Positions 417 through 33,841 of a stretch of 34,350 nt of DNA are shown here, one piece after another. The notes under the pieces were generated by a model. That model was not told where the DNA came from, ran no database searches, and was given only the letters and a program-made list of their open reading frames with translations. Made by a program: the position numbers and the translations under genes. Origin of the DNA: Candidatus Zhuqueibacterota bacterium. GTDB taxonomy: Bacteria; Zhuqueibacterota; Zhuqueibacteria; Thermofontimicrobiales; Thermofontimicrobiaceae. The first letter of the stretch is position 1. Each line of letters begins with the position of its first letter. The stretch lies in assembly GCA_016783825.1 (NCBI GenBank), contig JADHVV010000025.1:1-34350 (forward strand), in the 5' to 3' direction.

Positions 417-852
417 CTATTCTTCCTCCAAAATATTTTTATATTTTAATTTTGATATTTTTACAAAAGTTGTGTAGTTAGATGCAATCTTCATAAACAT
501 GATTCATTTTAGGGAGTGGGATAAAAAAAGTCAATCATATTAGCTTCACAAGTCATTATTTTTCAATATTAATTCTACTTTGTCAGATTAAAAAAATGAC
601 CTTAAATCAGTCATTCCAGCACGTTTTTTTGCCGGACTCTCCTGCCATTTTATAATGAGATTCCGGTATTCCGCTTCGCTTCAACCGGAATGACAAGGGA
701 ATACAGGTAATGTGACAAAGTAGAATTAAGAAAATTTAAAATGTACAAGTTATTTTATCCAATCCCCTGAATTTAAATTCGGAACGCTTATCACTTCTTT
801 TCGTTAAATAAATTCAAACAGTCACAAATGATTTTTTTTATTTCCGAATGTC
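417..852. other. Intergenic region with MITE-like element
   Basis: No coding potential is seen here. The region holds the inverted-repeat element at 569-729 and AT-rich sequence. The genes on both sides are divergent (minus to the left, plus to the right), so promoters for both should lie here, but I could not pick a convincing -35/-10 pair. Confidence 0.5.
569..729. repeat. 161-bp MITE-like element with 17-bp perfect terminal inverted repeats
   Basis: TTAATTCTACTTTGTCA at 569-585 is exactly complementary to 713-729. Nested inside is a second inverted repeat: GTCATTCCAG at 610-619 faces CCGGAATGAC at 685-694. The GTCATTCCGG word recurs at 33724-33733 and 33832-33841 in the gap at the far end of the window. 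No open reading frame is inside, so it would be non-autonomous if mobile. No target-site duplication is obvious. Confidence 0.7.
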
Positions 853-1839
853 ATGGTTAATCTCAAAAACTTACAACATTTTTTCTCACAAAATTCCAGC
901 TTGATTTTGCAAACTGGCGCACCCTGGTCTAAATTCATTTTATTAAAACCAGGTGATAAAGATTATGAGTCAACAAAACAGCTTTTATTGAACCATGAAA
1001 ATATAAAACAAATTCTTTCCTTGCTCGAAGATCAGGAAATCGGTATTAATTCACTCAATAACAATCCTGCTGATTTTCGCTTGTACAATTCCTTTTATTG
1101 GACATTACGTTTTTTAGCTGATATCGGCATCTTTGCGGAAGAATTGGGAATTAATCATCTAATTCAAAGACTAATGCTCCAGCAGTCCGAAGATGGACAA
1201 TTCATCATCCGTTATTATAAAAAACGACAGCAAGAAATTAGCTTAATTTGTATGACAGCTCATCTCACCTACTGTTTGACTCGATTGGGATTTCAGAACT
1301 CGCCTACTACAGAAGCAGCTATAAAACACATCATTTCAAGCCAGCGAAAAGACGGCGGCTGGCATTGTAAAAAACTCCATCAAAATGGTGAGCGTGATGA
1401 AAATCTACCCAGTTGTCCTGCAGCTAACATTCATGTTTTTCGCTTGTTGGGTCAATTTGGGAAAAAGTATGAATCAAATATTTCTGCAATTAAGGATACA
1501 ATCCTTGTCTCGTATAATTCAACCAAAGCTGACTTTTGCAATTACACTTCAGAACAAAATATAAATTACTCCAAATTAAGATATCCTCCCCATTTCACAG
1601 GGCTGGATATTTTAAATTTAATAAACAGCCTTTCTTATTTGCCTAATATTTCTTTGAAAAAATATTTCAACAAACTAATTAACAATGTTTTACGTCGCTG
1701 GGATGGAATGCATTTTTTATGTTCTGAAAAAAGAATACCCGCATGGTCATCTTTTGACTTTGGTCATAATAATAAAGGTTCGGATTGGATCACGGCGATT
1801 TTTCTTTCTGCTTTAAAACGTGCATATTTAAAAAAATAA
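853..1839 (+). CDS. Prenyltransferase/squalene-cyclase-like alpha-alpha toroid protein
   Basis: The 328-residue soluble protein carries repeats typical of the terpene cyclase/protein prenyltransferase alpha-alpha barrel superfamily. LQQSEDGQF (about residues 109-117) and SSQRKDGGWHCKK (about 167-179) are QW-like turns between paired helices, with a later FTGLDILNLINSL segment. There is no DxDD motif of class II cyclases and the length is about half that of squalene-hopene cyclase, so cyclase activity is unlikely. These short toroids are commonly annotated only as prenyltransferase/squalene oxidase repeat proteins. There is no signal peptide. The ATG at 853 has no clear ribosome-binding site. 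It stands alone, followed by an inverted repeat. The fold is fairly secure; the function is unknown. Confidence 0.75.
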   Translation: MVNLKNLQHFFSQNSSLILQTGAPWSKFILLKPGDKDYESTKQLLLNHENIKQILSLLEDQEIGINSLNNNPADFRLYNSFYWTLRFLADIGIFAEELGINHLIQRLMLQQSEDGQFIIRYYKKRQQEISLICMTAHLTYCLTRLGFQNSPTTEAAIKHIISSQRKDGGWHCKKLHQNGERDENLPSCPAANIHVFRLLGQFGKKYESNISAIKDTILVSYNSTKADFCNYTSEQNINYSKLRYPPHFTGLDILNLINSLSYLPNISLKKYFNKLINNVLRRWDGMHFLCSEKRIPAWSSFDFGHNNKGSDWITAIFLSALKRAYLKK

Positions 1840-1866
1840 CCGTAATCCATTCAGCTTAGTTTTTTT

Positions 1867-2040
1867 GCCACGAAGACACCAAGTCACGAAGTTTCACAAA
1901 GAAAAGCATTGTTGCTTTTTTATTTAATCAAAAACATAATAATTGAAATTGCATTGCAGAATAAAATCTACCCCTAAAAAGGGTGGTAATTTGATTTTTT
2001 TCTTTCTTTGTGTTTCTTGGTGTCTTTGAGTCTTGGTGGC
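1867..2040. repeat. Inverted repeat element, GCCACGAAGACACC / GGTGTCTTTGAGTCTTGGTGGC type
   Basis: The left arm at 1867-1904 (GCCACGAAGACACCAAGTC...) is imperfectly complementary to the right arm at 1999-2040 (...CTTGGTGTCTTTGAGTCTT, ending GGTGGC), enclosing about 95 bases of AT-rich DNA without an ORF. Arms built of CACGAAG/CACAAAG words are degenerate repeats of themselves. A related word pair (CCACAGAGAC / GTCTCTGTGG) appears in the element at 17895-18153. The element sits between the toroid gene and the DUF4412-type gene. Confidence 0.65.
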
Positions 2041-2137
2041 TGAATTGTTACAAATAACTGTACATAATTTTAAAAGGAACTAAACAGAATTTAAAAAGTC
2101 AAATTATAAAACAATCAACTAACCGGAGGAAAGTCTT

Positions 2138-2935
2138 ATGAAAAATATTACCAGAAAAACAACTGTCTTGATTTTAATTATGCTCTTTACCATCAGTATG
2201 TTTAAATCTAACGTTTTCGCTCAGAAAAAATTTGAGGGGTATTGGGAATCTGTTACAAATTCAAAATCAACCATGCCGATGGCGCCAAAGAAAACCAACG
2301 AAAAACAAAAAAGCTTTTACAAACCAGGGAAAATTAAAATTATAAATTTGACTAAAAACAAGACAACGATTCTCCGATTTGACAAAGGTCTGATGTGGGA
2401 AATTGACGACAATAATAAAACATATTCTGAGATGACTTTTGACCAGATGCAAATGGAAATGAAAAATGCGAAAACTAAGATGGCTGAGGCAATGAAAGAA
2501 ATGGATCCGGAACAACGCGAAATGATGAAAAAAATGATGGGCGGCAAAATGGGCGCCATGTTCGGAGATAGTGAAACACCGATGATCTCATTTAAAAATA
2601 CAGGGAAAAAGAAAACGATCAAAGGTTATAATTGTACACAATTCTTGATGTATTTGGGAAAAGATCCGATGATGGAAATGTGGTTGACAAAAAAGTACAA
2701 TCTTGGCGATGATTTTATTAAAATTTATCAAAAAATGGGATTAATGAAGGGGAAAATGCCAAAAAATTCCAAATTAAATGGATTTCCAATATTGATGAAA
2801 ACGAATGTCGATTTGGGAATGGGAAAGATGGAAGAGGAAACCATAGTTACAAAAATTGTCAAAACCGGAGTTTCTGATAAAGAATTTGAATTGCCAAAAG
2901 GATACAAAAAAATTGAAAATCAGATGGCTTTTTAA
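2138..2935 (+). CDS. Secreted methionine-rich DUF4412-type protein
   Basis: The 265-residue product starts with a classic Sec signal peptide (KNITRKTT then a hydrophobic stretch, cleavage probably after VFAQ near residue 29). A strong GGAGG lies upstream of the ATG. The mature part has the layout of DUF4412 proteins: a predicted beta-rich N-terminal half (IKIINLTKNKTTILRFDKGLMW), a methionine/lysine-rich linker (about residues 105-150, MEMKNAKTKMAEAMKEMD and MMKKMMGGKMGAMF), and a C-terminal half with IKGYNCTQF and an FELPKGYKK ending. DUF4412 proteins are periplasmic or exported with no proven function. The Met-rich linker suggests metal (copper) binding or redox protection, but that is inference. 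No operon partner is evident. Confidence 0.7.
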   Translation: MKNITRKTTVLILIMLFTISMFKSNVFAQKKFEGYWESVTNSKSTMPMAPKKTNEKQKSFYKPGKIKIINLTKNKTTILRFDKGLMWEIDDNNKTYSEMTFDQMQMEMKNAKTKMAEAMKEMDPEQREMMKKMMGGKMGAMFGDSETPMISFKNTGKKKTIKGYNCTQFLMYLGKDPMMEMWLTKKYNLGDDFIKIYQKMGLMKGKMPKNSKLNGFPILMKTNVDLGMGKMEEETIVTKIVKTGVSDKEFELPKGYKKIENQMAF

Positions 2936-3279
2936 TTTCAAATTGTCATAGTATGGATGAGTTCTCGCAGTTGAAAACAATAAATTATGCCCAACGGATA
3001 GAAACAACCCAACGGATTAAAAAAAAATAATAATAAATGAAAGATTTCTTTTAAAAATTAAACAATGAGCTTTCTTCAAATAGGTTAATAGGTAATAAGG
3101 TAATTAGGCAAATGATCCATCCACCAATTACCTAATATATTAGTTTACTTATTTCCTGAAAATTTGAACTGGACTATTAGAAATAATGCTTTTCATCCGT
3201 TGGGTTGTTTCTATCCGTTGGATTTTTTTTATTTGAATGGCTACAATTTTTTTAACAAAACCACTCTAATCACTATATG
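2936..3279. other. Convergent intergenic region filled by nested inverted repeats
   Basis: The gap separates two convergent genes and is mostly the inverted-repeat element at 2991-3221. I see no small ORF with a plausible ribosome-binding site. The strong pairing could terminate transcription from both sides, but there is no classical U-run directly after a short stem. Confidence 0.5.
2991..3221. repeat. Nested inverted repeat, 27-bp perfect CCAACGGAT arms around GGTAAT words
   Basis: The 27 bases at 2991-3017 (two CCAACGGAT words separated by AGAAACAAC) are the exact complement of 3195-3221. Inside, a second inverted pair of a different word type is present: AGGTAATT at 3098-3105, within a run of GGTTAATA/GGTAATAA/GGTAATTA, faces AATTACCT at 3126-3133. 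The CCAACGGAT word reappears at 6057-6122, and GGTAATTA reappears at 10154-10382 and 20684-20709. Confidence 0.8.
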
Positions 3280-4233
3280 CTAATTATCGTCCGAATAATT
3301 TTCTGCCGCCAATAAAATTGCTCCTACAATCCCTGCATCGTTTCCCATTTGCGCCCTGACAATTTTTAAATTTTGCATAATAGCTTTTACTGAGTATTGC
3401 CGTACTTCATTTTCGATCTGTTTTATGAACGGGTCACCGGCTTCGGAAACGCCGCCACCGATTATTACAACTTCCGGATCAATGATGTTGGAAATGCTTG
3501 CAATACCGGCGCCAAGGTATTCACAAGTTTCCGCTATTGTTTCAATAGCCAGACCTTCATTTCTACTTGCTTTTTGAAAAATAAATTCTGTATTCAGTTC
3601 ATTTATATTATAGGCTAAACCCAGTCGTTTCAATTTTTTTTGATATCTCTTGACCATTGCCGGCGCTGTGGTGTATGCCTCCAAACATCCTTTATTACCG
3701 CAATTGCAGCGTATCCCATTGTATGCAATAATTATGTGTCCAACTTCAGCAGCAGAATAATGTTCACCCCGAAGCACCTGGTTGTCAATCAAAATGCCGC
3801 CGCCAATTCCTGTTCCCAGTGTGAGACACAGAATATTTTTATAGCCTTTTCCTGCGCCGAGTCGAGCCTCTGCAAGCGCCATGATATTTGCATCATTATC
3901 TGCCCAGGTTGAAATATTGAATTTTTCTTCCAATGTTTTTTTTATGGGCGCCTTTGCCCAATTAGGCAAGTTTGGTGTACTCCCTTTTAATTGACCGGTT
4001 TCAAAATCAATACTTCCCGGGCTACCTACCCCGATGGATAGAATTTTATTTTTGCGCTTTTCTGCTTCAGCTTTCAGTTCTTCAACTGCAATAAACATAT
4101 TTTCAAATATTGTTTTTTGAGACTGATTTGCCTGAGATGGTCGGCTCTTTTTTATAATTATCTCTCCGTTTTCATTTCCCAGGGCATACTTTAAATTTGT
4201 TCCCCCGAGATCCATTCCAATAAATAAATCCAT
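3280..4233 (-). CDS. ROK family sugar kinase (glucokinase-like)
   Basis: The 317-residue protein has the N-terminal ATP phosphate-binding motif FIGMDLGGTNLKYAL. It also has the ROK signature region LTLGTGIGGGILIDNQV, the catalytic acidic residue in the STWADNDANIMALAE segment, and the zinc motif CNCGNKGCLEAY preceded by EVGHI. This matches bacterial ROK glucokinases, which phosphorylate glucose or a related hexose with ATP. I chose the ATG at 4233 because it gives the usual short N-terminus; an in-frame GTG lies two codons upstream. Neither has a good ribosome-binding site. It lies downstream of xylulokinase on the same strand with a 122-bp gap containing a perfect hairpin, so co-transcription is possible but could be attenuated. 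The family is certain; the sugar is not. Confidence 0.88.
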   Translation of the reverse strand: MDLFIGMDLGGTNLKYALGNENGEIIIKKSRPSQANQSQKTIFENMFIAVEELKAEAEKRKNKILSIGVGSPGSIDFETGQLKGSTPNLPNWAKAPIKKTLEEKFNISTWADNDANIMALAEARLGAGKGYKNILCLTLGTGIGGGILIDNQVLRGEHYSAAEVGHIIIAYNGIRCNCGNKGCLEAYTTAPAMVKRYQKKLKRLGLAYNINELNTEFIFQKASRNEGLAIETIAETCEYLGAGIASISNIIDPEVVIIGGGVSEAGDPFIKQIENEVRQYSVKAIMQNLKIVRAQMGNDAGIVGAILLAAENYSDDN

Positions 4234-4333
4234 TAACACAATCCATATTTTGTTTTAAGTTACTATTTATCCAAAAAATTTAAACTTTTAATTTAATAAA
4301 ATATTATGTAATAATCAAGTATTTTTGCTACTA

Positions 4334-4366
4334 AACTTTACTAAACCTTAAAGGTTTAGTAAAGTT
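4334..4366. repeat. Perfect 16-bp palindrome overlapping the xylulokinase stop
   Basis: AACTTTACTAAACCTT at 4334-4349 pairs exactly with 4351-4366 around a single A. The stop codon of the minus-strand xylulokinase (4356-4358) lies inside the right arm. On the minus strand the hairpin is not followed by a U-run, so a standard terminator is not supported. It separates xylulokinase from the ROK gene and shares AAACCTT words with 30966-31084. Confidence 0.75.
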
Positions 4367-5939
4367 GCACCAATTTTTTTCGCAACTCAAATGGATTATC
4401 TTTACTCCCAATTCCCCTGATTTTCTTACTCAAACAATTAAATAGTTTTTTTAATACCCGGTAACATGCTGCATTTTCAGCAATAGGATAGCTGCGTTTA
4501 CTTTCCAACAAACTAATGAAAGGATGCACTATTTGATTCAAGGGAATATTTTTATGATTCTCTTTTTGATAAACCCAGGCTGCATGCAAAGCCGCTCCCA
4601 AAGCTGCACCTTCTCCTTCTACCGGTACAACCTCTGTTTCGAAAATATCGGCAATTGTCTGGCGCCATACTTCTGATTTTGATAATCCACCTGTCAGCCT
4701 GATCTCTTTTGTTGTTATTGGCATTCTCTGAAATCCATTATATAAATTGAGAATGTGACCTTCCAACACCGCACGACACAGGTATGATTTGTTAAAATCT
4801 CCCAATTGAAAACCAAAATAAAATGGCGCGGCATGGGGTAAGTCAGGAGTTCGTTCGCCTGAGAACCAGGGAATTATTAATCTGCCCGCACAGCCCGGAA
4901 TCACTTTTTTAACAATTTCATTAAATTCAAGATGTGATAAATCAAACTGATTTAAAAGCGTGTTATACCCGTTCGCCAGGTTGGAAACGCACAATAATGG
5001 CAGGTAATTTCCGGTGCTGTCACAAAATGAAGCAATTTCTCCTTCCGGGTCAATAAAAGCTTTTTCCATGAATGAACATGCAGTACCGCTTGTGCCCAGG
5101 CTTATGGTAACAATACCAGGTGTTACATTCCCTGTTCCAACTGCGCCAAACATATTATCACCACACCCGGCATCGATTCGACATTGCGGATCAAAACCAA
5201 AACGCTCCACCAACTGTTGTGAAATATTCCCAATAGATTTATCCGATGGTAACACAGGCGGTAATTTTGCCATTAAATCGGGGGATATTTTTTGAACAAT
5301 TTTTTCAGACCAGCATTTTTTTTGTGGATGCCAAAGCGCCATTCCCGATGTATCTCCAGATTCCATAACCCTGACGCCATTATTCTTACCTCCTGTCAAA
5401 TACCAATTTATAAAATTATGAACAAGAAATAATGTTGTTGTTTTATCGAATGCTTCCGGTTCATGTCTCGCAAAATGGTAAATTTTAGAGGCTGTATAAC
5501 CTGTCCTTTGTGTATTCCCCACCTCTGCAATCATTTTTGACTTGCCACCGACCGCTTCAGTCAGCAAATCACATTCTTCCTGGGTCGAAAAATCATTCCA
5601 CAATTTACTTTTTGGACGGGATAATTCCCCAAATTTATCCAGGCAAACCAAACCATGTTGCTGCCCGGAAACAGAGATGGATTTTATATCACAAATTGGA
5701 AACGAGGATTTTTGCAATTTGAAAAATAACATTTCCAGACTATCGATCCACATTTGCGGATCAGATTCTGACAGACCCTCTATCGAACTCTGCTCCACCC
5801 CATTATTTGTATTATATTGAGGTAAATCAACATCATAATTGATTTGATCGGAATACAAAACTTCTGCTTTATCCAGGTCAATGATTACCAGTTTTTTGCT
5901 TTGAGTAGAGCAGTCAAATCCGGCGAATAAGTTATTCAT
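4356..5939 (-). CDS. xylB: Xylulokinase (FGGY family carbohydrate kinase)
   Basis: The 527-residue protein shows the FGGY-kinase N-terminal phosphate loop (FAGFDCSTQSKKLVIID), the substrate-region motif SVSGQQHGLVCLD and DAGCGDNMFGAVGTG. The C-terminal ATPase half follows: SLGTSGTACSF, GGLSKSEVWRQTIADIF and the adenosine loop GEGAALGAALHAAW. SGQQHG followed by LWND and the TASKI segment are typical of D-xylulose kinases, which make xylulose 5-phosphate for the pentose phosphate pathway. It is about 30 residues longer than E. coli XylB because of an extended basic C-terminal tail. The ATG at 5939 has a good AAGGAG upstream. No xylose isomerase is in the window. Confidence is high for FGGY and good for xylulokinase. 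Confidence 0.88.
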   Translation of the reverse strand: MNNLFAGFDCSTQSKKLVIIDLDKAEVLYSDQINYDVDLPQYNTNNGVEQSSIEGLSESDPQMWIDSLEMLFFKLQKSSFPICDIKSISVSGQQHGLVCLDKFGELSRPKSKLWNDFSTQEECDLLTEAVGGKSKMIAEVGNTQRTGYTASKIYHFARHEPEAFDKTTTLFLVHNFINWYLTGGKNNGVRVMESGDTSGMALWHPQKKCWSEKIVQKISPDLMAKLPPVLPSDKSIGNISQQLVERFGFDPQCRIDAGCGDNMFGAVGTGNVTPGIVTISLGTSGTACSFMEKAFIDPEGEIASFCDSTGNYLPLLCVSNLANGYNTLLNQFDLSHLEFNEIVKKVIPGCAGRLIIPWFSGERTPDLPHAAPFYFGFQLGDFNKSYLCRAVLEGHILNLYNGFQRMPITTKEIRLTGGLSKSEVWRQTIADIFETEVVPVEGEGAALGAALHAAWVYQKENHKNIPLNQIVHPFISLLESKRSYPIAENAACYRVLKKLFNCLSKKIRGIGSKDNPFELRKKLVQLY

Positions 5940-6001
5940 TGGTTCTCTCCTTACTGATAGATAATTTTATTCTGATTTTTTCATAAATGAGCAGTAGGAT
6001 T

Positions 6002-6212
6002 GGAGAGTGGGAGAACGGGAGTGGTGGAGATGGGGAGAAGATAAAATCGAAAAAATCCAACGGATGAGCAGCAGGATAAAAAAAACAATCCTTCTTTTAT
6101 CCGTTGGCAGTTCATCCGTTGGGAACAATTATTTTATACAGCTACGCAATCTCCTCCAACATAATTCTACTACATCTTTCTCCCACTCCCCCAATCTCCC
6201 TGTCTCCCCTTT
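6002..6212. repeat. Nested inverted repeat: GGAG-rich outer arms, CCAACGGATGA inner arms
   Basis: The outer left arm at 6002-6040 is purine-rich (GGAGAGTGGGAGAACGGGAG...). The outer right arm at 6176-6212 is its degenerate complement (CTTTCTCCCACTCCCCCAATC...). The inner arms CCAACGGATGA at 6057-6067 and TCATCCGTTGG at 6112-6122 are exact, and GGATAAAA at 6074-6081 pairs with TTTTATCC at 6095-6102. The CCAACGGAT word is shared with the 2991-3221 element. No ORF with coding character lies inside. Confidence 0.75.
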
Positions 6213-6315
6213 CACTTGATCAAACAGGCATTAAAATTATACGATTGATTCTTTATAAATTTCCATTGTATTACATTTTTTTAACCGGAAATGGCTTAAA
6301 AAGATAATATTTTTC

Positions 6316-6343
6316 TTGTTTTTTAAATTAAAAACTTTATATT
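6316..6343 (+). promoter_or_regulatory. Putative sigma70 promoter for alanine dehydrogenase
   Basis: TTGTTT at 6316-6321 is followed after 16 bases by TATATT at 6338-6343, placing a start near 6350 and a leader of about 40 bases before the ATG at 6393. The match is moderate in a very AT-rich context, so chance is a real alternative. Confidence 0.4.
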
Positions 6344-6392
6344 AGAGCGAGTTAAAATAATTAAATAATCAGTTTCAAATTTGGAGGAAAAT

Positions 6393-7502: not shown

Positions 7503-7561
7503 AATTAAACATCAAAAAAATTAAAACATAAAAAAATTATTCCTTTTATATCAATAAAATC

Positions 7562-7613
7562 GTATGAAAATAATTCATACATAATTTTTACAAATAAAAA
7601 ATATAGTTATAAT
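7562..7613 (+). promoter_or_regulatory. Putative operator and promoter upstream of CoA-transferase
   Basis: GTATGAA at 7562-7568 and TTCATAC at 7574-7580 form a 7-5-7 palindrome of operator type. Seven bases further, TTTACA (7587-7592) and TATAAT (7608-7613) are separated by 15 bases, close to a sigma70 pair. The ATG of the next gene is at 7649. The palindrome immediately upstream of the -35 would suit an activator or repressor, but this is inference from layout only. Confidence 0.35.
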
Positions 7614-7648
7614 AATTGATTTAATATTCAAAGAAAAGAGAGTTTAAT

Positions 7649-8944: not shown

Positions 8945-8956
8945 CAGGAGAAAACA

Positions 8957-10153: not shown

Positions 10154-10382
10154 ATTATTGGGTAATTGGGTTACTGGGTAATAAGGTAATTAGGTGATTG
10201 GGTAATTAGGTGATTGGGTAATTAGGTGATTGGGTAATTAGGTGATTGGGTAATTAGGTGATTGGGTAATTGGATTAGTAATATTTAGAATAGATTTTAT
10301 TACCTTATTACCCAGTAACCTTATTACCTATTTACCCTGTTACCCAATTACCTTTTTACCTAATCACCTTATTACCCAATTA
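10154..10382. repeat. Large inverted repeat with five exact 16-bp tandem copies (GGTAATTAGGTGATTG)
   Basis: From 10185 to 10264 the unit GGTAATTAGGTGATTG is repeated five times without error, with a partial sixth copy. GGTTACTGGGTAATAAGGTAA at 10169-10189 is exactly complementary to 10300-10320, and the whole left side (10154-10273) is roughly complementary to the right side (10300-10382, made of TTACC/ATTACC/AATCACC words). Only the left arm shows perfect tandem copies; the right arm is degenerate. It fills nearly all of the pgk-FdhE gap. The same words occur at 3081-3133 and 20649-20709. Confidence 0.85.
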
Positions 10383-10410
10383 GCATTGCATTTAACTGAA
10401 TGTGGTTTTG

Positions 10411-11268: not shown

Positions 11269-11302
11269 AATGTCCAAAATATTTAATCCAACCCCCTAAA
11301 CA

Positions 11303-12085: not shown

Positions 12086-12221
12086 CTTGGAATATTTAAA
12101 ATAAATTCACCGCAAATATTTATTATTAAGATAATGGTTGATTTTATTTTTTGATTAGTTTATATTATTACTGTTCAAATATGTATTACGAAATGAGTTT
12201 TATCTGAGCCAAGGAAAGTAA

Positions 12222-17822: not shown

Positions 17823-18182
17823 TGCTTAACGTTTTGAGTAATTAATCTCACCAAAATGGTAATATTTTTATCAATAATATATATTAGAATTTTAGTAACT
17901 ATTCAGCCACAGAGACTCGGAGACGCAGAGTTTAGAAAATGAGTTCTTAAAAATGAAATAACTTTAGAATTTAAGGCTGTCAATAGGTTTGAAGCTGTTT
18001 TCAAGGTACAGCTACTATCTTATTTGCGTTTAACAAAAATAAACTAGATTTTCTTATAACCTTTTATGTACCAATTTTTAAAGATGGCATTGATAGAGTA
18101 GCTATAAAAGACTCTGTGTCTCTGTGGCAATTTTATTATAGCTGAATAGTTACGAATTTTAAAATATAAGGGAAGGAATAAA
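17823..18182. other. Intergenic region occupied by MITE-like element
   Basis: Nearly the whole gap between the PfkB and homoserine dehydrogenase genes is the element at 17895-18153. I see no ORF with a ribosome-binding site inside. A GGAAGGA directly before the homoserine dehydrogenase ATG is outside the element. Confidence 0.5.
17895..18153. repeat. 259-bp MITE-like element with GTAACTATTCAGC terminal inverted repeats
   Basis: GTAACTATTCAGC at 17895-17907 is exactly complementary to 18141-18153. Just inside, CCACAGAGAC (17907-17916) pairs with GTCTCTGTGG (18118-18127), and a degenerate GGAGACGCAGAG / GACTCTGTGTC match continues the arms. The core has no coding frame. The first ten bases of the terminus, GTAACTATTC, also form a hairpin at 33713-33750, so the terminus is shared between distant sites. 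Confidence 0.75.
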
Positions 18183-20619: not shown

Positions 20620-20620
20620 T

Positions 20621-20844
20621 GGTGAGTGGTTAGTGGTGAGTGGTTAGTGGTGATTGGTTAGTGGTGATTGGTTAGTGGTGAATTAGGTAATAGGGTAATG
20701 GGGTAATTAGATTGAGGTAGTAGATATTTATTTTATTGTTACTTAATTTGGACAAACCAGATGAAAAAAAGGAGTATTGGAGTAATGGAGCGATGGATTT
20801 TTCAAACACAAACTTTATTGCTCCAAAACTCCATTTTTCCTTTT
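20621..20844. repeat. Composite of GGTGAGTGGTTAGT 14-mers, GGTAAT words and a GGAG inverted pair
   Basis: From 20621 to 20676 a 14-base unit (GGTGAGTGGTTAGT twice, then GGTGATTGGTTAGT twice) repeats in tandem, then changes to GGTAAT words (20684-20709). After a gap, GGAGTATTGGAGTAATGGAGC (about 20772-20793) faces GCTCCAAAACTCC (20821-20833). Seventeen bases at 20622-20638 are the exact complement of 22091-22107 in the next element. Thus three word families occur side by side in a single gap. Confidence 0.7.
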
Positions 20845-20912
20845 TGATTTTTTCTTGATCTCAGCCTTGATCTCGACCTTTCTTTAACTCCAAACTCTAT
20901 AGGGCTAAAACA

Positions 20913-21997: not shown

Positions 21998-22024
21998 GTT
22001 TTCCTCCAATTGTTTGGTGTATTT

Positions 22025-22129
22025 GTGAGTGGTGAGTGGTGGAGTAGTGAGTGGTAGAGTAGTAAGTACAATCAATGCTTCAATTTTACTCACCACTAAC
22101 CACTCACGACTCACCACCTACTACTCACC
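22025..22129. repeat. GTGAGTGG-word inverted repeat overlapping the AIR-synthase stop codon
   Basis: The left arm at 22025-22068 (GTGAGTGGTGAGTGGTGGAG...) and right arm at 22087-22129 (...CACCACTAACCACTCACGAC...) are degenerate complements around an 18-base loop. The stop codon of the upstream minus-strand gene (22121-22123) lies in the right arm, and the amidase ribosome-binding site begins only some 18 bases past the left arm. The structure therefore sits inside a probable operon. Bases 22091-22107 are complementary to 20622-20638. Confidence 0.8.
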
Positions 22130-23457: not shown

Positions 23458-24063
23458 AAGAATTCCCCTTTTTGCAATCAAATTAAAATAAATTAAAAAT
23501 ATGTAAATAGCAAGTATTTTTTTGGAAACGTAATTCTAAATTTTTTTCTTGACTTTTAGTCTCATTATATTAACTTATAATTGGAGAAATTGGTATCCAC
23601 TCGAAATTATTAAAAGTTATTTTATTCTTTTATTCATCCTCTACGAGGATGTAAAACTTCAGCGATGATTTATTTTACAATAATAATTTATAAAACAAAA
23701 AGTTGGCAGAAGTGTGCAATAGAATTAGCAGAATTATTGATAGCAGCCTGTCCGACTTCTTTTTGGCGAAAATAATAAAAAATAGAGAGTAAAATAATTC
23801 TGCTATAAATCATTCTGCGATATAATTGTTTTAAATTATATTCAATTTTGGATGCAGCTTTGCTGCATTAGTCTGTTATCAGTTCAATCTTTGTTTTTTT
23901 TGCAAAAATTTTCAAATATACAGCAATTTGGTGGATGGGAAGGGACTAATCACCAATAACAATTCACCAGTTACCAATGCACTTTAGTGCGCTAGGAATA
24001 ACCGACTTATTTTTTCAATCATAATTCTCTTTTCTTTTAAAAAACAGAGAGGTAACTGAAAAA
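23458..24063. other. Long divergent intergenic region with four compact hairpins
   Basis: This 606-base gap has no gene that I can support. It contains CATCCTCTACGAGGATG (23635-23651), a 13-bp inverted pair TAGCAGAATTATT / AATAATTCTGCTA (23726-23738 and 23793-23805), ATGCAGCTTTGCTGCAT (23852-23868) and GCACTTTAGTGC (23979-23990). Two share a 7-3-7 geometry. The promoter for the giant secreted protein should lie near the right end, and AGAGAGGTAACTG before its ATG serves as ribosome-binding site. Confidence 0.5.
23635..23990. repeat. Cluster of short-loop palindromes
   Basis: Four palindromes lie within 356 bases: 7-3-7 at 23635-23651, 13-bp arms 23726-23738 with 23793-23805, 7-3-7 at 23852-23868, and 5-2-5 at 23979-23990. 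None is followed by a U-run, so they are not terminators. The different sequences but similar geometry suggest REP-like units or protein-binding sites. Confidence 0.5.
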
Positions 24064-27654: not shown

Positions 27655-27677
27655 ATTTTACAAATTAAATTTTTATA

Positions 27678-27706
27678 TTGACAATGTGCAAAAAATTTAT
27701 TATAAT
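27678..27706 (+). promoter_or_regulatory. Perfect-consensus sigma70 promoter for RRM protein gene
   Basis: TTGACA (27678-27683) and TATAAT (27701-27706) match the sigma70 consensus exactly with 17-base spacing. Transcription would start near 27713, leaving a leader of about 100 bases before the ATG at 27814. Long leaders are common in cold-shock-induced RNA-binding protein genes, but no known element is recognised here. Confidence 0.7.
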
Positions 27707-27813
27707 TACAGCTAACATATTTTGAATACTATTCAAATCTTAAAATGTGAGGTCTGCCTATCCAAAAAAAGTAGCCAAGTCTAACCTATCTAATGCCTTT
27801 CAGGAGGGGAAAA

Positions 27814-28092
27814 ATGAAAATCTACGTAGGGAATTTACCTAAGGATGCCGATGAGGGTGACCTGATGGAAATGTTCGAGGAATATGGACGTGTAAGGAAT
27901 ATCAAAATCATTCGTGACCGTTTTTCAAACCATTCAAGGGGATATGCTTTTTTGGAACTGCCTGACGAAAAGTCTGCGCGCCAGGCAATAGAAGATTGGG
28001 ATCAAGGATCTATCGATGACCAAATTATCAAAGTAGATGTTGCCAAAGTATCTCGAGGTCATGTGCTTCATCGGAATAATCCGATGGCATAA
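27814..28092 (+). CDS. RNA-recognition motif (RRM) protein
   Basis: The 92-residue product is essentially a single RRM. It has RNP2 KIYVGNLPKDADEGDL at the N-terminus, FEEYGRVRNIKIIRDRFSNH, RNP1 SRGYAFLELPDEKSARQAI and DQIIKVDVAKVSRG at the end. Aromatic residues at RNP2 position 2 (Tyr) and RNP1 (Tyr, Phe) that stack on RNA are present. Single-RRM proteins in bacteria bind short RNA stretches and are often cold-induced. The ATG at 27814 is chosen because GGAGGGG lies just before it; an in-frame ATG seven codons upstream would put this signal within the coding region. It has its own consensus promoter and terminator, so it is monocistronic. The RNA targets are unknown. Confidence 0.92.
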   Translation: MKIYVGNLPKDADEGDLMEMFEEYGRVRNIKIIRDRFSNHSRGYAFLELPDEKSARQAIEDWDQGSIDDQIIKVDVAKVSRGHVLHRNNPMA

Positions 28093-28132
28093 TTTTTTTA
28101 ATTGAATAAAATTAATCTCTTAAAGATTAGCT

Positions 28133-28192
28133 GTCAGTGGAATAATAATGAATTCTGCCTGATTTTTTTTGGGCGCCACTGACTTTTTTTTT
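28133..28192 (+). terminator. Rho-independent terminator after RRM gene
   Basis: GTCAGTGG at 28133-28140 pairs with CCACTGAC at 28176-28183, followed by nine T (28184-28192). The 35-base loop is long and includes its own T-run, but the stem and U-tract are clear. Confidence 0.7.
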
Positions 28193-28215
28193 AGGATCTA
28201 CACCGAGGAATATTT

Positions 28216-28269
28216 ATGCCCCAGCGATTTTGTATGAGTATTATCAATTTTATAAAATTATCAAAGTAA
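28216..28269 (+). CDS. Short leader ORF upstream of ABC permease
   Basis: ATG at 28216 has a good GAGGA six bases upstream and reads 17 codons (MPQRFCMSIINFIKLSK) to TAA at 28267-28269, eleven bases before the permease ATG at 28281. The permease itself has no ribosome-binding site, so translation of this leader could bring ribosomes to it. It may be a regulatory leader, a coupling peptide or a relic of a deleted upstream gene such as the missing ATPase. There is no homology evidence. Confidence 0.35.
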   Translation: MPQRFCMSIINFIKLSK

Positions 28270-28280
28270 AAAACATAACA

Positions 28281-29222
28281 ATGGATAAAAATTTATACGC
28301 CCATTATTTTCGGAAACTTGCGTCCTTATTAAGTTTACTGATCATTGTTATTCTTCTGTCAATTCTCTCCCCATATTTTTTTACAACAGAAAATCTTTTT
28401 TCAATCGGATTACAAATGGCAGTAATTGCCATCATGTCCATCGGACAAATGTGGATCATTATTTCCGGTGGAATTGATCTTTCAGTCGGTTCTGTGCTTG
28501 CCTTATCCGGTGTTGTCTCAACCCTGCTTATTTCCAGTGGATTTGATATCCTGACTGCCTCATTGGTCGGAATAATGGTTGGCTCGCTGTGCGGAGTCAT
28601 TAGTGGTTTTCTTATTTCAGCGGGAAAGCTTCCACCTTTTATTGCAACATTAGGAATGATGGGTATCGCCAGGGGTATGGCGCTGATTTTAACAAAAGGC
28701 GTTCCGGTTTTTGGCTTGCCCGAATCCTTTTCTGTAATTAGCAACGGCAGAATAGCAAACCTGGTTCCTATTCCAATACTCATTACTTTATTATTAGCTC
28801 TAATAGGACACATTATTCTGACTCGCACACCGTTTGGTAGATACACTTATGCAATCGGCAGTAATTTTGAAGCTGCCAGACTTTCCGGTATTCGCACATC
28901 ACGCACACTGATTTATATTTATACACTGGGTGGCATGTTGTCCGGGCTTGCAGGTATTATTTTAGCGTCCAGGCTTAGCACAGGTCAACCTACAGCCGGC
29001 ACCGGTTATGAACTTGATGTGATAGCTGCCTGCGTAATTGGAGGCGCCAGTTTAAGCGGCGGCGCTGGCACAATTTGGGGCGCTATTCTTGGCGCTCTTT
29101 TAATCGGGGTGCTGCGAAACGGATGTAACCTTATGGATATTTCAGCATTTTGGCAACAAGTAGCCATTGGCGCGCTTATTGTTATTGCAGTTTTTATTGA
29201 TCAATATCAGAAGAACAGGTAA
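28281..29222 (+). CDS. Sugar ABC transporter permease (RbsC/XylH family)
   Basis: The 313-residue integral membrane protein has about eight to nine hydrophobic segments. Hallmarks of the ribose/xylose/galactose permease family (BPD_transp_2) are SPYFFTTENLFSIGLQMAV, the GGIDLSVGSVLALSGVV motif after the second or third helix, LPPFIATLGMMGIARG, and GRYTYAIGSNFEAARLSGI, the cytoplasmic loop that couples to the ATPase. It would form a homodimeric pore in the inner membrane. The ATG at 28281 gives the standard N-terminus; a TTG 17 codons upstream is the alternative. A binding lipoprotein gene follows, but no RbsA-type ATPase gene is nearby. The stop codon overlaps the left arm of an inverted repeat. 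Confidence 0.9.
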   Translation: MDKNLYAHYFRKLASLLSLLIIVILLSILSPYFFTTENLFSIGLQMAVIAIMSIGQMWIIISGGIDLSVGSVLALSGVVSTLLISSGFDILTASLVGIMVGSLCGVISGFLISAGKLPPFIATLGMMGIARGMALILTKGVPVFGLPESFSVISNGRIANLVPIPILITLLLALIGHIILTRTPFGRYTYAIGSNFEAARLSGIRTSRTLIYIYTLGGMLSGLAGIILASRLSTGQPTAGTGYELDVIAACVIGGASLSGGAGTIWGAILGALLIGVLRNGCNLMDISAFWQQVAIGALIVIAVFIDQYQKNR

Positions 29223-29336
29223 AGGTAAAAGAACAGGTTAAGGTCAAGGTCAAGAAATCATCACAAAATATACTCTTATTTCAATTTTGGAAAATCTTTT
29301 CCTTTACCTATACCTATACCTTTTCCTTTACCTTTT
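29216..29336. repeat. GGTAAAGG-word inverted repeat overlapping permease stop
   Basis: The left arm at 29216-29252 consists of AGGTAAAGGTAAAAG and AGGTTAAGGTCAAGGTC words. The right arm at about 29299-29336 is a degenerate complement (CCTTTACCTATACCTATACC then TTTTCCTTTACC). The permease stop codon TAA (29220-29222) lies in the left arm. The element separates permease and binding-protein genes of one transporter and may set their relative expression. Confidence 0.7.
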
Positions 29337-29375
29337 CAAAAATCTTCACCTAATTTTTTACACGGAGGAAAAACA

Positions 29376-30323
29376 ATGTACAAACGATTTTTTATTCTTT
29401 TTGTAATTACTATCTTATTATTCCAAGTAGGATGCTCAAACCAATCCACACAAACACAAAAAAGGATTCTCGTTTCGCCTAAAGGACTCGTGCTTTCTTT
29501 CTGGGTAACTGTCAAAGCTGGTGCAGATTCTGCGGGAAAGGAATTTAATGCAAAAATTATCTGGAAAGGACCTAACCAGGAAACAGATATTGCAGGACAA
29601 ATTGCAATTGTAGAAGATTACATTAACAAAGGGATAGACGCGATTGTTATTGCTGCTTGCGATGCGCAAGGTCTTATTCCGGTATTGAAAAATGCAAATA
29701 ATAAAAACATCCCTATAATCACAATTGATTCGGGAATTGAATCTGACCTGCCGCGCAGCTTTATCGCAACAGACAATACCGTTGCTGCACATAAAGCCGC
29801 ACAAGCATTGGCAAAAATGATTAACGAAGAGGGAAAAGTTGCCTGTATTCCATTTATTCCCGGGGCTGCAACTTCAATATGGCGGGAGAAAGGATTTGTG
29901 GAAGAAATAAAAAAATATCCCAATATTGAACTTCTCCCCATCCGCTATTCTCAGAGTGACGTGGCTATAGGAATGGCTGTAGTAGAAGACATTTTAACTG
30001 CACATCCGGATCTAAAAGGTATATTTGCAGCTAACGAATCAGGGACAATCGGGACTATTCAAGCATTAAAGACAAAGAATAAAATTGGTAAAGTAAAAGT
30101 GATTGGTTTTGATGCAGCGCCAAACGAGATAAAAGCATTAAAAGCCGGTGAAATAGATGGTTTGATTGTACAGGATCCTTTCAAAATGGGCTACGAGGGA
30201 GTAAAAGCAGCAATTAAATCTATGCAAAACGAACCCATACCAAAAAGAATCGATACCGGTGTTTATGTTGTAACTAAGGATAATTTATCCCAACCTGAAA
30301 TTCAACAAATAATCAATCATTGA
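29376..30323 (+). CDS. Sugar-binding lipoprotein of ABC importer (RbsB-like)
   Basis: The 315-residue protein has a lipoprotein signal peptide with lipobox FQVGC (C20) and the periplasmic binding protein type 1 fold (Peripla_BP_4). GADSAGKEFNAKIIWKGP, IDAIVIAACDAQGLIPVL and NIPIITIDSGIESDLPRSFIATDN mark the first lobe and hinge. GKVKVIGFDAAPNEIKALKAGEIDGLIVQDPFKMGYEG marks the second lobe. Such proteins bind ribose, xylose or related sugars and deliver them to an RbsC-type permease. A strong GGAGG precedes the ATG. It is probably co-transcribed with the permease, separated by the inverted repeat. Ligand identity is not readable from the sequence. Confidence 0.92.
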   Translation: MYKRFFILFVITILLFQVGCSNQSTQTQKRILVSPKGLVLSFWVTVKAGADSAGKEFNAKIIWKGPNQETDIAGQIAIVEDYINKGIDAIVIAACDAQGLIPVLKNANNKNIPIITIDSGIESDLPRSFIATDNTVAAHKAAQALAKMINEEGKVACIPFIPGAATSIWREKGFVEEIKKYPNIELLPIRYSQSDVAIGMAVVEDILTAHPDLKGIFAANESGTIGTIQALKTKNKIGKVKVIGFDAAPNEIKALKAGEIDGLIVQDPFKMGYEGVKAAIKSMQNEPIPKRIDTGVYVVTKDNLSQPEIQQIINH

Positions 30324-30341
30324 TATAATTGTAAAAACTCC

Positions 30342-30370
30342 TTGACAATTATCATTTTATGTATTATATT
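30342..30370 (+). promoter_or_regulatory. Sigma70 promoter for DksA/TraR-like gene
   Basis: TTGACA (30342-30347) and TATATT (30365-30370) are spaced by 17 bases, giving a start near 30377 and a leader of about 60 bases before the ATG at 30438. Confidence 0.6.
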
Positions 30371-30437
30371 TACTCCGCATTTTAGTTAGCGACAATTTAA
30401 TAAATAATTTTTTATTCCAAACAGAAGGATTTTTCTA

Positions 30438-30806
30438 ATGACCCACAAAGATTTGGAATACTTTAAAAAACTTCTTTTGAAAAAAAGAGACGAAATTTTG
30501 CATGAGCTCGGATTCATTAAGGAGTCATCAAAAAATCAAAATAAGGAAACTTCAGGAACTGATTCCACATATTCTATTCACATGGCTGATCACGGTACTG
30601 ATGAAGAGCAGAGAGAAAAAGCATACTACCACGCATCAAGAGAAAACAAGTATTTACTTTATTTGGAAGATGCTTTGACAAGAATCGAAGAGGGCTCTTA
30701 TGGAATGTGTCTCGGCTGTGAGCAAGAGATACCAAAAGAAAGATTAAAAGCAGTACCGCATACCCAATTATGTGTTCCATGCAAAATGAAAGAAAAACAA
30801 GCCTGA
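30438..30806 (+). CDS. TraR/DksA family zinc-finger transcription factor
   Basis: The 122-residue protein has the DksA/TraR architecture. An N-terminal coiled-coil helix (MTHKDLEYFKKLLLKKRDEI) is followed by an acidic middle and a second helix. The C-terminal C4 zinc finger is CLGCEQEIPKERLKAVPHTQ followed by LCVPC (C91, C94, C112, C115). These proteins enter the secondary channel of RNA polymerase and alter initiation, often with ppGpp. The coiled-coil tip, where DksA has a DxxDxA motif, here reads ADHGTDEEQRE, a related acidic tip with Asp residues. It has its own promoter and a strong terminator. The ATG is preceded by AGAAGGA. Confidence 0.92.
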   Translation: MTHKDLEYFKKLLLKKRDEILHELGFIKESSKNQNKETSGTDSTYSIHMADHGTDEEQREKAYYHASRENKYLLYLEDALTRIEEGSYGMCLGCEQEIPKERLKAVPHTQLCVPCKMKEKQA

Positions 30807-30860
30807 TATTTCGCAGCTAGTTTTTTGGAAATATGCAGCAACATCTATATTTGATCTTAC

Positions 30861-30902
30861 CCCAATTTCTACCTGTTAGGAAGTTGGGATTTTTCTTTTT
30901 TT
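30861..30902 (+). terminator. Rho-independent terminator of DksA-like gene
   Basis: CCCAATTTC at 30861-30869 pairs with GAAGTTGGG at 30880-30888 (nine pairs including one G-U), followed by a T-rich tract (30890-30902). Confidence 0.85.
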
Positions 30903-30965
30903 CCAACCTGGGCTAGTCCAACCCGACACCGACTAAAAAATATCGTAAAACCTCAGTTATCGATA

Positions 30966-31084
30966 AATGTAGAGTTACTAAAAACCTTATTTTTATCTTT
31001 AAAACCTTAATAGAATACAAAAATCAACTAAATTCTTAAACCTTATTACCTTATTTGTGACATGAAAGCAGAAAAATAAGGTTT
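30966..31084. repeat. AAACCTTA-word repeat zone
   Basis: AAAACCTTATTT, AAAACCTTAATA and AAACCTTATTACC words recur at about 30983, 31002 and 31038. AAACCTTAT at 31038-31046 pairs with ATAAGGTTT at 31076-31084. The words resemble the palindrome at 4334-4366 and a stretch near 13535. Membership in a family is tentative. Confidence 0.4.
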
Positions 31085-31101
31085 CTGTCCTAACATCATA
31101 T

Positions 31102-31190
31102 TGGTATAATTCTGAATATATAAAAAAAAAGCAGCCTTAAAAAATAATGGGAAGAAAGGAGGTAAAACCCAGAATAATTTAAGGCCGCAA
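31102..31190 (+). ncRNA. Candidate small RNA with Shine-Dalgarno in apical loop
   Basis: TGGTATAAT at 31102-31110 is a perfect extended -10 promoter. Downstream, GCCTTAAA (31134-31141) pairs with TTTAAGGC (31178-31185) and GGG (31149-31151) with CCC (31168-31170). This leaves a 16-base purine-rich loop AAGAAAGGAGGTAAAA whose AGGAGGT (31157-31163) is a full anti-16S match. No start codon follows at a usable distance. The structure is direct; transcription is inferred. It could alternatively be a leader-peptide relic or a repeat. Confidence 0.35.
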
Positions 31191-31306
31191 ATATTTATAA
31201 ATAACTATTTTTTATTATGTTACATTTTTGAGCAATAATTCAAAACATCAATTATTAACAAATTAGATGAGTTTAACTTTATAAGGATTCAAAAGTTCCA
31301 ATTTTT

Positions 31307-33508
31307 TTATTTTTTTTCTCGCTTCATTTTTTTTCTCAATGAAATGGGCACGTTAAAAAAGAGATCGAAGATCCAGTGTTCCAATAAAGCGCCGCGTTCT
31401 CCGAAAACCGGAATAATGTGAACAATGCTTGTCGCCCATCTGCCAGCCATTAAGCGGGATAGCGCAGGAAATTTTGCCACCATTTGAATGGGAAATCCCA
31501 AGTATCCAACATAATGCCAGAACGAGATCAATGCTGCAATCCAGTAATTTTTTATATCTCTCTCTTTTATCATAAGGTATATTACATAAGTCCCCCTGAC
31601 TAATGAGCCCGGAGAAATCGGTGTTGCCTGAAATGCTGCTAATACTATTCCAGCATATAAAAGACCTTCTGCCCATGTTTTTCCAAACGCAATCATAGCA
31701 TAAATAGCTGCAACCAATGAAATTACTTGCGTGATAGGCAAAGTTGCCACATGAACTGCAACGCATTTTAAATATTTTTGAATGAACGGATCTTTAATAT
31801 TATCCCGAATATAATCAGCCTCGACTTCTGACAACATTCCTTCATCATGTCCGGCATTTACATTTTCTAATAACCATTGCTCCCTGAATTCTGCATCTCT
31901 ATAAAATCGAACCGGGTATGTTACGGCAAATTTGAAAGCTTCCCAGGCGAATTTTCCATCAGTGAGAAAACGAAACCATTTTGGAGGCAGCCAACTAATT
32001 AAAAATCTTTGCCGCCAGAAAGAGAATGGTTTGTTTAATAATAATAATACTCTTTCTTCGGTCACTCTCCCATCGCGGTACCAGTCAATTAATGTAAGCG
32101 CCTGCTTTGCTTTAAGCACTCTTCCAAAATAACCTTTTGTTGAGAACAAACTCTTGATATGGCGCGAGTAATTATCATTTCCCCACAGCCTTCTAAAAAA
32201 TCGACCTAAAAAAGGAATCAAGCCGAGCAGGTAAAATAAAATAAATTTAAAAACAGATGAATTAAAAGATTCGCTATGTTTCTCATCTACCAATCCTTTA
32301 CATTTCCATCCTTTAATGATGCCCGCTCTCACTGATTTTCGCAACTTCTTTTTATAGATTAATTTAATCCAGTGGTGCGTTAAATCAGGCAGAGATTCCC
32401 GATATTGTGGATCTCTTACTTTTAATTCTTCAATTACAGGTTTCAGATCAATGAATTCCTGTTCATATTTTTCAATGAATTCATCTAATTTTTTATAATT
32501 AGCCCGATCAAATTGAACGAGCTTGCCGCGGAACAATCCTTTAATGATCAACTTAAAATCAGCAGGACTCATCGGCAAAAAAGGTAACAGCGCCAGTCCG
32601 GCTCTGAAATCGATAGCAGTCACACCATCATAGTTGTTTTTGGAAAGCTGTGTCCGTTTAAGCGCATTTGGCTGACTTTTCATAGTGGACCATTCATATT
32701 GTCGCGCTAATTCCGGGGCGCCCATATCATGCAGCAATTTGACAAGATCAGCCATGAATTTTCTTTTTGTAAGAAATTCAGCTGATGTAATAGACCCGTC
32801 GTCAGGAATTTCTTCAAATTTTTTCCAATTTTTTCGTTTAAAAATTTCATCATCTATCTCGAATTTCCAATTTCGTCCGGTGATCCATTCATTGACCTCT
32901 CCGAAACTATCCATTGTATTATCATAAAAGGTCGCATAAGTATTAACGACAGCATCTTCACTATCCAGATAAATTTTTGCAGCACGACGAATGAGTTTCT
33001 GCCATAGCACACCAACCCTGGCAGCAGAATAATGCGTTTGAGCAGCAAAAGGTCCCTGGTATGCAAGCCAATAAATTAAATTTCTAAAAGAATGCGAGAA
33101 GTTTGATGGAGGAATTAATATCTTGATCGCATAAACATTGCCAACTTTGAGATCAGAAAAAGCCATCGAAGAATTCATCTGCTCAATTTCAACTAATTTT
33201 ACACGATAAACCTGTCCCGCAAATCCACCACCAACAAATTTTTCTATTTCTAATGTTGCAGTTGCTTTTTCATCAGGGCAAATCGCTGTTAAATTGTAGT
33301 GAAGCAGATCGCCAGTTTCATAACGTGATGGTGGATATGACCTGATTAAATTCGCCTTGTCCACCTCCTGGCGCAGCTTATCACATACTTCTAATGAATA
33401 TGGTAAATCAAATTCGCGCTGGTTTTTGGTGTCTTGTTTTTCAGCTTCACTACTTTTTTTAGTTTCATTTATTTTTACAGTTAGTTTTTCTTTCTCGGTA
33501 ATCCCCAT
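31307..33508 (-). CDS. Large protein with kinase-like N-terminal domain and multi-pass membrane C-terminal domain
   Basis: I do not recognise the family of this 733-residue product. An acidic/basic tail (1-35) leads into a segment that looks like an atypical protein kinase. It has a glycine-rich loop FVGGGFAGQVYRVK (91-104) and an alpha-C/beta-3 lysine in VYAIKIL (K129). Further on are a helical insert, GEVNEWITGRNW (203-214, possible hinge), VKLLHDMGAPEL (256-267, position of an HRD-like loop) and GVTAIDFRAGLALLP (295-309, position of a DFG-like Asp300). The C-terminal half is rich in aromatic and basic residues. It has hydrophobic segments at about 418-436, 584-608, 613-632 and 655-676, and a short basic tail. 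Thus it is probably a membrane-bound pseudokinase or kinase. It is flanked by convergent and tandem gaps and has no obvious operon partner. The ATG at 33508 has AGGGAAATT upstream. Confidence 0.75.
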   Translation of the reverse strand: MGITEKEKLTVKINETKKSSEAEKQDTKNQREFDLPYSLEVCDKLRQEVDKANLIRSYPPSRYETGDLLHYNLTAICPDEKATATLEIEKFVGGGFAGQVYRVKLVEIEQMNSSMAFSDLKVGNVYAIKILIPPSNFSHSFRNLIYWLAYQGPFAAQTHYSAARVGVLWQKLIRRAAKIYLDSEDAVVNTYATFYDNTMDSFGEVNEWITGRNWKFEIDDEIFKRKNWKKFEEIPDDGSITSAEFLTKRKFMADLVKLLHDMGAPELARQYEWSTMKSQPNALKRTQLSKNNYDGVTAIDFRAGLALLPFLPMSPADFKLIIKGLFRGKLVQFDRANYKKLDEFIEKYEQEFIDLKPVIEELKVRDPQYRESLPDLTHHWIKLIYKKKLRKSVRAGIIKGWKCKGLVDEKHSESFNSSVFKFILFYLLGLIPFLGRFFRRLWGNDNYSRHIKSLFSTKGYFGRVLKAKQALTLIDWYRDGRVTEERVLLLLNKPFSFWRQRFLISWLPPKWFRFLTDGKFAWEAFKFAVTYPVRFYRDAEFREQWLLENVNAGHDEGMLSEVEADYIRDNIKDPFIQKYLKCVAVHVATLPITQVISLVAAIYAMIAFGKTWAEGLLYAGIVLAAFQATPISPGSLVRGTYVIYLMIKERDIKNYWIAALISFWHYVGYLGFPIQMVAKFPALSRLMAGRWATSIVHIIPVFGERGALLEHWIFDLFFNVPISLRKKMKREKK

Positions 33509-33712
33509 AATTTCCCTTATTCATTAAACATTATTTTGTGATTATTATTTCACAAGGATTAAATATATGCCCTGCCATTAATCAGGCTGGGAAATATAAA
33601 GAATTAAAAATACAAAATCAAGAGAAAATCATTCTTAAAAAATCTTATTTCTAATATGATTAAGGTCGATTTTAAAAATTGATATGAATAATGGGTAATT
33701 TAAAAACAAAAA

Positions 33713-33841
33713 GTAACTATTCTGTCATTCCGGCAATCCTGAATAGTTACATTTTAAAAACAGGGAAATACAGACTATGCTTTAAGCTGGAATCTCCTTT
33801 GTTCTCCACGGAGATACCCGATAAGAGATTTCGGGAATGAC
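33713..33841. repeat. Interleaved inverted repeats GTAACTATTC and GTCATTCCGG
   Basis: GTAACTATTC (33713-33722) is exactly complementary to 33741-33750. GTCATTCCGG (33724-33733), lying in the loop of that hairpin, pairs with CGGGAATGAC (33832-33841, nine of ten). The two pairs overlap in A-B-A'-B' order. The first word is the terminus of the element at 17895-18153 and the second is the inner arm of the element at 569-729, so this site looks like a chimera of two repeat families. Confidence 0.7.

Follow-up and report, generated by a model that had tools for sequence, protein, structure and literature searches.

Mosaic intergenic palindromes in a Zhuqueibacterota genome as the probable sediment of several small mobile element families

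How intergenic gaps come to hold long inverted repeats built from short, interchangeable words is the question raised by contig JADHVV010000025.1 of Candidatus Zhuqueibacterota bacterium (assembly GCA_016783825.1), analysed over its whole 34,350 nucleotides and hereafter called the window. A first-pass annotation had described at least nine such sites and had offered two origins for them: word arrays generated as, or copied into, inverted pairs, or the nested insertion of several element families. The palindromes are very probably what has accumulated as small non-autonomous mobile elements, of several families, inserted into gaps and into one another. Three classes of element would take part in this: elements resembling miniature inverted-repeat transposable elements (MITEs), with terminal inverted repeats of 12-15 bp and fixed-length duplications (8 bp in family A, 4 bp in family C and probably 4 bp in family B); an element of 41-46 bp, S, with covarying ends, whose insertion point lies exactly between C and TT (or AA); and palindromic modules of short degenerate words, which stand alone, inside MITEs or behind conserved tails.

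The window is contig 40 of an assembly of 4.54 Mb in 260 contigs, the genome being 83% complete. The genome was sampled as 650 kb in stretches, ~14% of the whole, together with 40 targeted fetches. Genes were called by a simple open reading frame (ORF) rule, so that gap borders are approximate, and dinucleotide shuffles of the gaps served as the chance baseline for inverted-repeat scores. The phosphoglycerate kinase of the window is 74% identical to that of one metagenome-assembled genome (MAG), about 71% to that of another and 70% to that of a candidate division KSB1 MAG, which places the source genome in a KSB1-related lineage.

Palindrome abundance and the MITE-like families

An inverted repeat scoring at least 16 was found in 91 of the 321 gaps of the 650-kb sample, compared to 0.8 per shuffled set, and one scoring at least 20 in 42 gaps, compared to none after shuffling. 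More than half of the gap bases (54%) match another gap, as against 3.4% when shuffled and 12% for coding pieces. Gaps with inverted repeats amount to 28% here and to 2%, 10%, 5% and 10% in small samples from other genomes of its family. Palindromes of recurring words were recovered at all nine window sites, and several gaps clearly surpass their own shuffles, with scores of 48 in the gap 10154-10401 (shuffle maximum 14), 32 in 2936-3279 (shuffle 18) and 19 in 29223-29375 (shuffle 13). The single-hairpin score is marginal at 417-852 (20, shuffle 20) and at 17823-18182 (18, shuffle 21), and the elements in these two gaps were accepted because more copies of each occur elsewhere in the genome. 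No known RNA family of Rfam matched in the window, six chosen word strings from it were without any match in published text, and plasmids gave one weak partial match only, for CCAACGGAT.

Families A and C have the terminal inverted repeats common to many copies and the fixed-length duplications that characterize MITEs, while the case of family B is less sure. The family A terminal repeat, GTAACTATTCAG, is present in 102 exact copies (reversed-pattern control, 1), and 33 of 61 paired copies are flanked by an 8-bp duplication agreeing at no fewer than 7 of 8 positions, with 1.9% expected from mismatched flanks; the signal appears at length 8 only, no other length being prominent. Relatives, too, have exact copies of these ends (24, 20 and 23 in G001, G003 and G009, respectively). 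The family C repeat, TTCTACTTTGTCA, is accompanied by a perfect 4-bp duplication in all seven sample copies (0.19 expected from mismatched flanks), and the family B repeat, AGTGTCTGTCCGA, has 49 exact ends. Within the window, where palindromic features are given without strand, a family C element spans 573-725, with TTCTACTTTGTCA ends and TTAA direct repeats at 569-572 and 726-729. A family A element lies at 17895-18153 (17887-18161 with flanks), with GTAACTATTCAG ends, inner CCACAGAGACTCGGAGACGC words and a perfect 8-bp duplication, GAATTTTA, at both sides. A degenerate family A element at 1842-2051 (1834-2059 with flanks) has the ends GTAATCCATTCAG and CTGAATTGTTAC, inner CCACGAAGACACCAAG words and 8-bp flanks, AAATAACC and AAATAACT, that agree at 7 of 8 positions; in a sister genus (L281:3475-3677) these ends stand around related CCACAAAG words, and the 8-bp duplication is perfect.

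The first-pass proposal of interchangeable words holds, as shared terminal repeats surround different interiors. At least five inner palindromes, unrelated to each other, are found within the GTAACTATTCAG repeat, and in a table of chassis by interior, family A ends flanked by a good duplication surround GTCATTCTGA, GCAGAAT, GTCATTCC, CTCCCACAGAA or CCACAGAG palindromes. The S column of that table is unreliable, since the string used to find S hits the family A end too. The inner palindrome GTCATTCC is in turn found within four distinct kinds of terminal repeat (A, B, C and G); in the window, the module GTCATTCC...GGAATGAC (610-694) is nested in the family C element. A word said to be shared by positions 610 and 33724 was misread, position 610 having GTCATTCCAG and not GTCATTCCGG. 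The outer palindrome CCAACGGATAGAAACAACCCAACGGAT (2991-3221) surrounds a GGTAATTA word hairpin at about 3079-3144, and an exact second copy of its outer arms at L158:13362-13707 encloses instead a family A MITE with an 8-bp duplication. Likewise, the arms of a dispersed 91-bp GCAGAATTATTGATAGCAG element (23728-23818) are also found inside family A MITEs. Tails behave similarly: the conserved tail TGCACTTTAGTGCGCTAGG, which in the window ends a stretch of TTGGTG/ACCAATTCACC words (23938-23999), comes after AAGGCTGAGGCG or GTGAAACGTCAAACG words at other loci, and the tail TGCACTTTAGTGCGCTRGG stands behind three different word palindromes. The earlier contrast with REP and MITE families, said to have one conserved sequence, holds for each family taken singly, but many families coexist in the genome.

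Element S and its paired insertions

Element S, CTGTRYAGTYAC...RYACAGACTRTGC, is 41-46 bp long and present in 98 strict copies in the genome (reversed control, 0), with no strict copy in 12 relatives and none in IMG/VR. It occurs singly, in head-to-tail rows or within other elements. Five head-to-tail copies stand at a contig end (L123:1-209, the start of C83), which suggests that S arrays break the assembly.

Two near-identical family A copies, L130:6278-6437 (160 bp) and L159:12116-12360 (245 bp), represent an S-empty and an S-filled state. In the longer copy each arm has received an S at an identical position, GAGATTC^TTC; the two inserts, of 42 and 43 bp, add up exactly to its 85-bp surplus. 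Among 28 scorable copies, 20 have both arms empty, six have S in one arm and two in both. In double copies the S units of the two arms belong to different subtypes, and one arm was therefore not simply copied from the other. S inserts in an orientation that is fixed with respect to its target, and a palindrome, whose two arms both present that target, would thus gain a matching pair of inserts.

The ends of S covary in a pattern of two helices arranged as a pseudoknot. Across 30 distinct copies 97.9% of the cells are paired, and four pairs have changed on both sides, a result matched by none of 500 shuffles, which ignore relatedness. The paired changes come in several forms (CTGTATCG/CGAT, CTGTCCAG/CTGG and CCGTACAG/CGG); covariation is seen as well, less completely, when S is drawn as a plain six-pair hairpin. 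It is conceivable, though rather doubtful, that S moves as a pseudoknotted single strand of RNA or single-stranded DNA, is confined to the genus and builds larger mosaic palindromes by orientation-specific insertion into both arms, the tandem-word arrays spreading by a related, undescribed mechanism.

One S copy lies in the window, at 33739-33780 on the plus strand, in one arm of the palindromic module GTCATTCCGG...GGGAATGAC. The module occupies about 33723-33841 of a feature at 33713-33841, with a single GTAACTATTC end before it and no 8-bp duplication. Uninterrupted, the module reads CAATC-TTTTAAGC at this site, and L235 too carries S there. The word CTGAATAGTTAC at 33739 is, as a correction to the first-pass reading, the 5' end of a separate element of ~42 bp; this end (CTGTATAGTTAC, 33739-33750) is one base off the reverse complement of GTAACTATTCAG, the family A end.

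Tandem-word modules and rival mechanisms

Degenerate words of 6-9 bp, repeated in arrays, make up the sites at 10154, 22025, 29216 and 6002 as well as the interiors of other sites. Directly 3' of the pgk stop codon, a palindrome of GGTAATTA/G words with an 8-bp unit (10154-10382) has a perfect 32-bp tandem repeat in its left arm and 78 matching places in the genome; in the relative L044 the gap after pgk is occupied instead by a short GGAGCGATGGAGAAAT hairpin. Word palindromes are also formed by GTGAGTGG and CCACTCAC with a 7-bp unit (22025-22129), by AGGTAAAGG and CCTTTACC with a 6-bp unit (29216-29336) and, by direct reading, by GGGAGTGG and CCACTCCC around CCAACGGAT words (6002-6212), which was not scored as one gap because the ORF caller took part of it as coding. 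A mosaic gap at 20620-20884 comprises unpartnered GTGAGTGG and GGTAAT arrays, a GGAGTATT hairpin (20765-20838) and an unpartnered CTTGATCTCAGC array; the GTGAGTGG words reported at 20622 are present, but a partner arm is absent from their own gap. A short palindrome, AACTTTACTAAACCTTAAAGGTTTAGTAAAGTT (4329-4366), belongs to a dispersed family with 10 pairs in the sample. The distribution of the words is patchy: CACKAATTNCACKAATTNCAC is present in 12 of 82 genomes of a phylum sample, and the family GGAGTRWTGG is, among 40 named relatives, found only in the genome of L044. The tandem words may possibly have spread by a route like that of the REPINs (paired repetitive extragenic palindromic, REP, sequences) or by targeted insertion like that of S.

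Several side observations were made. The 3' gaps of pgk in Ignavibacteria (e.g. L062, L070, L072, L073, L079 and L081) have a plain terminator, AAGAAGCAGTCTAA, in some species, and in a neighbouring clade AAGAGC/AAGAGT word hairpins, which in L072 extend to a long array, at the same orthologous site. Thirteen viral contigs of IMG/VR (L183-L195) carry CACKAATTNCACKAATTNCACKAATT, mostly as one unpaired array of ~30 bp between genes, two of them (L183 and L186) with other word arrays close by. A 29-bp match of 93% to AACCACGAATTACACGAATTTCACGAATTAA in the RusA gene of phages HK140 and mEp043 (E=0.005) is possibly due to chance. A small open frame of the window (27815-28092), starting MKIYVGNLPKDADEGDLMEMFEEYG, resembles by eye an RNA-recognition-motif protein.

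One explanation for arrays of this kind is template switching across hairpins combined with strand slippage, in which tandem duplication would grow the arms and copying across the hairpin would follow, keeping the architecture constant while the sequence drifts. Template switching is documented to create and maintain RNA hairpins (PMC8794818). The arms are indeed tandem arrays, that at 10154 with its 32-bp repeat; the left-arm stretch 10161-10190 reappears off-register in the right arm, and the Ignavibacteria pgk 3' hairpin varies, within one orthologous site, from a simple to a word-like form. However, arms fit their own partner no better than the arms at other loci (mean cis rank 0.35-0.53, from small numbers with some loci entered more than once), which argues against hairpin copying and also against strong selection for exact pairing. 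The same words moreover turn up at numerous loci, and their polarity is strictly fixed, with the plus form preceding the minus form in 5:0 cases for GGAGTAAT, 12:0 for GGTAATTR, 5:0 for CACKAATTN and 13:1 for AGGCGA. As the double S copies also differ in subtype between arms, hairpin copying is unlikely and was set aside; the first of the two origins proposed, the copying of word arrays into inverted pairs, is not supported.

A second candidate is that the palindromes are REPINs mobilised by REP-associated tyrosine transposases (RAYTs), a search for which had been suggested. RAYT genes do exist in this genome: four Y1 transposase matches were found, three with intact frames, and those at L009 (1489-1932) and L011 (1279-1827) lie between inverted palindromes of which the genome holds further copies, which makes them likely to be two RAYT/REP systems. 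Yet their palindromes (CACGCCATAAATGGCGTG; TTCGGAGTGCA...) differ from the window words and do not account for them, and no flanking pair was formed when the loci of all four matches were scanned for window words with few mismatches allowed. Families A and C, furthermore, have target duplications, and Y1 transposases are not known to produce these. RAYTs as the general mover are accordingly given little credence. A group II intron or other retroelement was likewise rejected, as the reverse transcriptase matches (one full, one partial) are without a matching pair in their flanks, scanned with loose matching for the A, B, C and S ends only.

The palindromes might instead be functional intrinsic terminators or mRNA-stabilising hairpins under selection. 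G-T mismatches on the transcript strand exceed A-C mismatches (98 vs 66, p=0.015), which leaves some room for an RNA role, A and T runs flank some arms, and the word-like hairpins of Ignavibacteria sit at the pgk terminator position. Placement shows no significant preference for 3' ends, however, with inverted repeats in 78 of 256 co-directional, 7 of 30 convergent and 6 of 35 divergent gaps (co-directional vs divergent, p=0.11), and the median distances to the upstream stop (64) and the downstream start (78) are similar. Since the arms are not specifically matched to one another and related genomes have far fewer such repeats (2-10% of gaps vs 28%), this explanation is very improbable. Chance or low complexity in AT-rich gaps is refuted, some single window hairpins being no better than their own shuffles but the genome-wide counts far exceeding the shuffled ones and reversed-pattern controls giving only 0-1 matches.

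The nested insertion of several families, the second of the proposed origins, is by comparison backed by the target-site duplications and copy numbers, by shared ends with interiors exchanged between chassis, by the empty and filled S sites, and by the independence of the arms and the fixed polarity of the words. Enzymes supplied in trans would move the MITE-like elements and S. Some results weigh against this interpretation. No mover was identified for S, nor for family A, for which IS66 was tried, in a search that was not exhaustive. IS66 generates an 8-bp duplication and has a GTAA end; its DDE domain is absent from the 83%-complete genome (G000), and the family A end was not found within the fetched flanks of three IS66-type matches in relatives, so that IS66 was rejected as the partner. 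Elements can count as MITEs even when their partner has been lost. The flanks of family B are AATT-like in 15 of 16 cases, a weak signal against a chance of 0.61 with AATT common there, and no clear target duplication was seen in the two word families tested, CACKAATT and GCAGAAT.

The genome thus illustrates how complex palindromic mosaics may arise from nested insertion and not from hairpin copying, and such element-rich gaps would explain breaks in short-read assemblies. Mobile elements below 50 bp are scarcely documented; with ~100 strict copies of S, paralogous sites that have or lack the insert, and ends that covary, both target choice and structure become testable from sequence.

Comparison with known systems

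S is, like the small dispersed repeats (SDRs) of Nostoc, very short and dispersed, with precise insertion (the L130/L159 empty site) and compensatory changes in a predicted structure. Elhai and colleagues are said to have found the Nostoc repeats to be 21-27 bp long, with compensatory changes, and nested in tandem heptamers and minitransposons. S differs in its length of 41-46 bp, its KSB1-related host and its presence in both arms of palindromic MITEs. The Nostoc repeat SDR5 inserts between nucleotides 3 and 4 of HIP1 (PMC4390886).

REPINs and bacterial interspersed mosaic elements (BIMEs), with their RAYTs, also pair short extragenic words in inverted orientation and with a defined polarity (PMC3116915, PMC2817692); the present palindromes share these traits but use many unrelated words and tandem-array arms, and the two RAYTs examined carry other palindromes. 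Tandem words in paired arms have a parallel in Geobacter metallireducens, where sites of five tandem heptamers are drawn as paired arms (PMC2700814), and in BrickBuilt, a MITE of Porphyromonas gingivalis, a 23-bp minisatellite forms the interior (PMC4596501). Both differ in words and units, and a nested 42-bp element is not among the features described in the accessible text. Neisserial intergenic mosaic elements (NIMEs), composed of dRS3 and RS repeats with dRS3 being ATTCCC(N8)GGGAAT (PMC3898611), likewise form intergenic arrays of mixed short repeats with inverted ends; that dRS3 pattern was not encountered, the GTCATTCCC module here, ATTCCCGCATGTTTTTAGCGGGAAT, having a longer spacer of 13. 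The larger elements resemble MITEs such as the Correia elements, which are 100-155 bp long with 26-bp inverted repeats and a TA duplication (PMC3898611). They have in common a length of 100-300 bp, terminal inverted repeats, the absence of genes, a target duplication, an intergenic location and many copies; in contrast to them, an autonomous partner is not identified here, several families coexist, and one terminal repeat is found around different inner palindromes.

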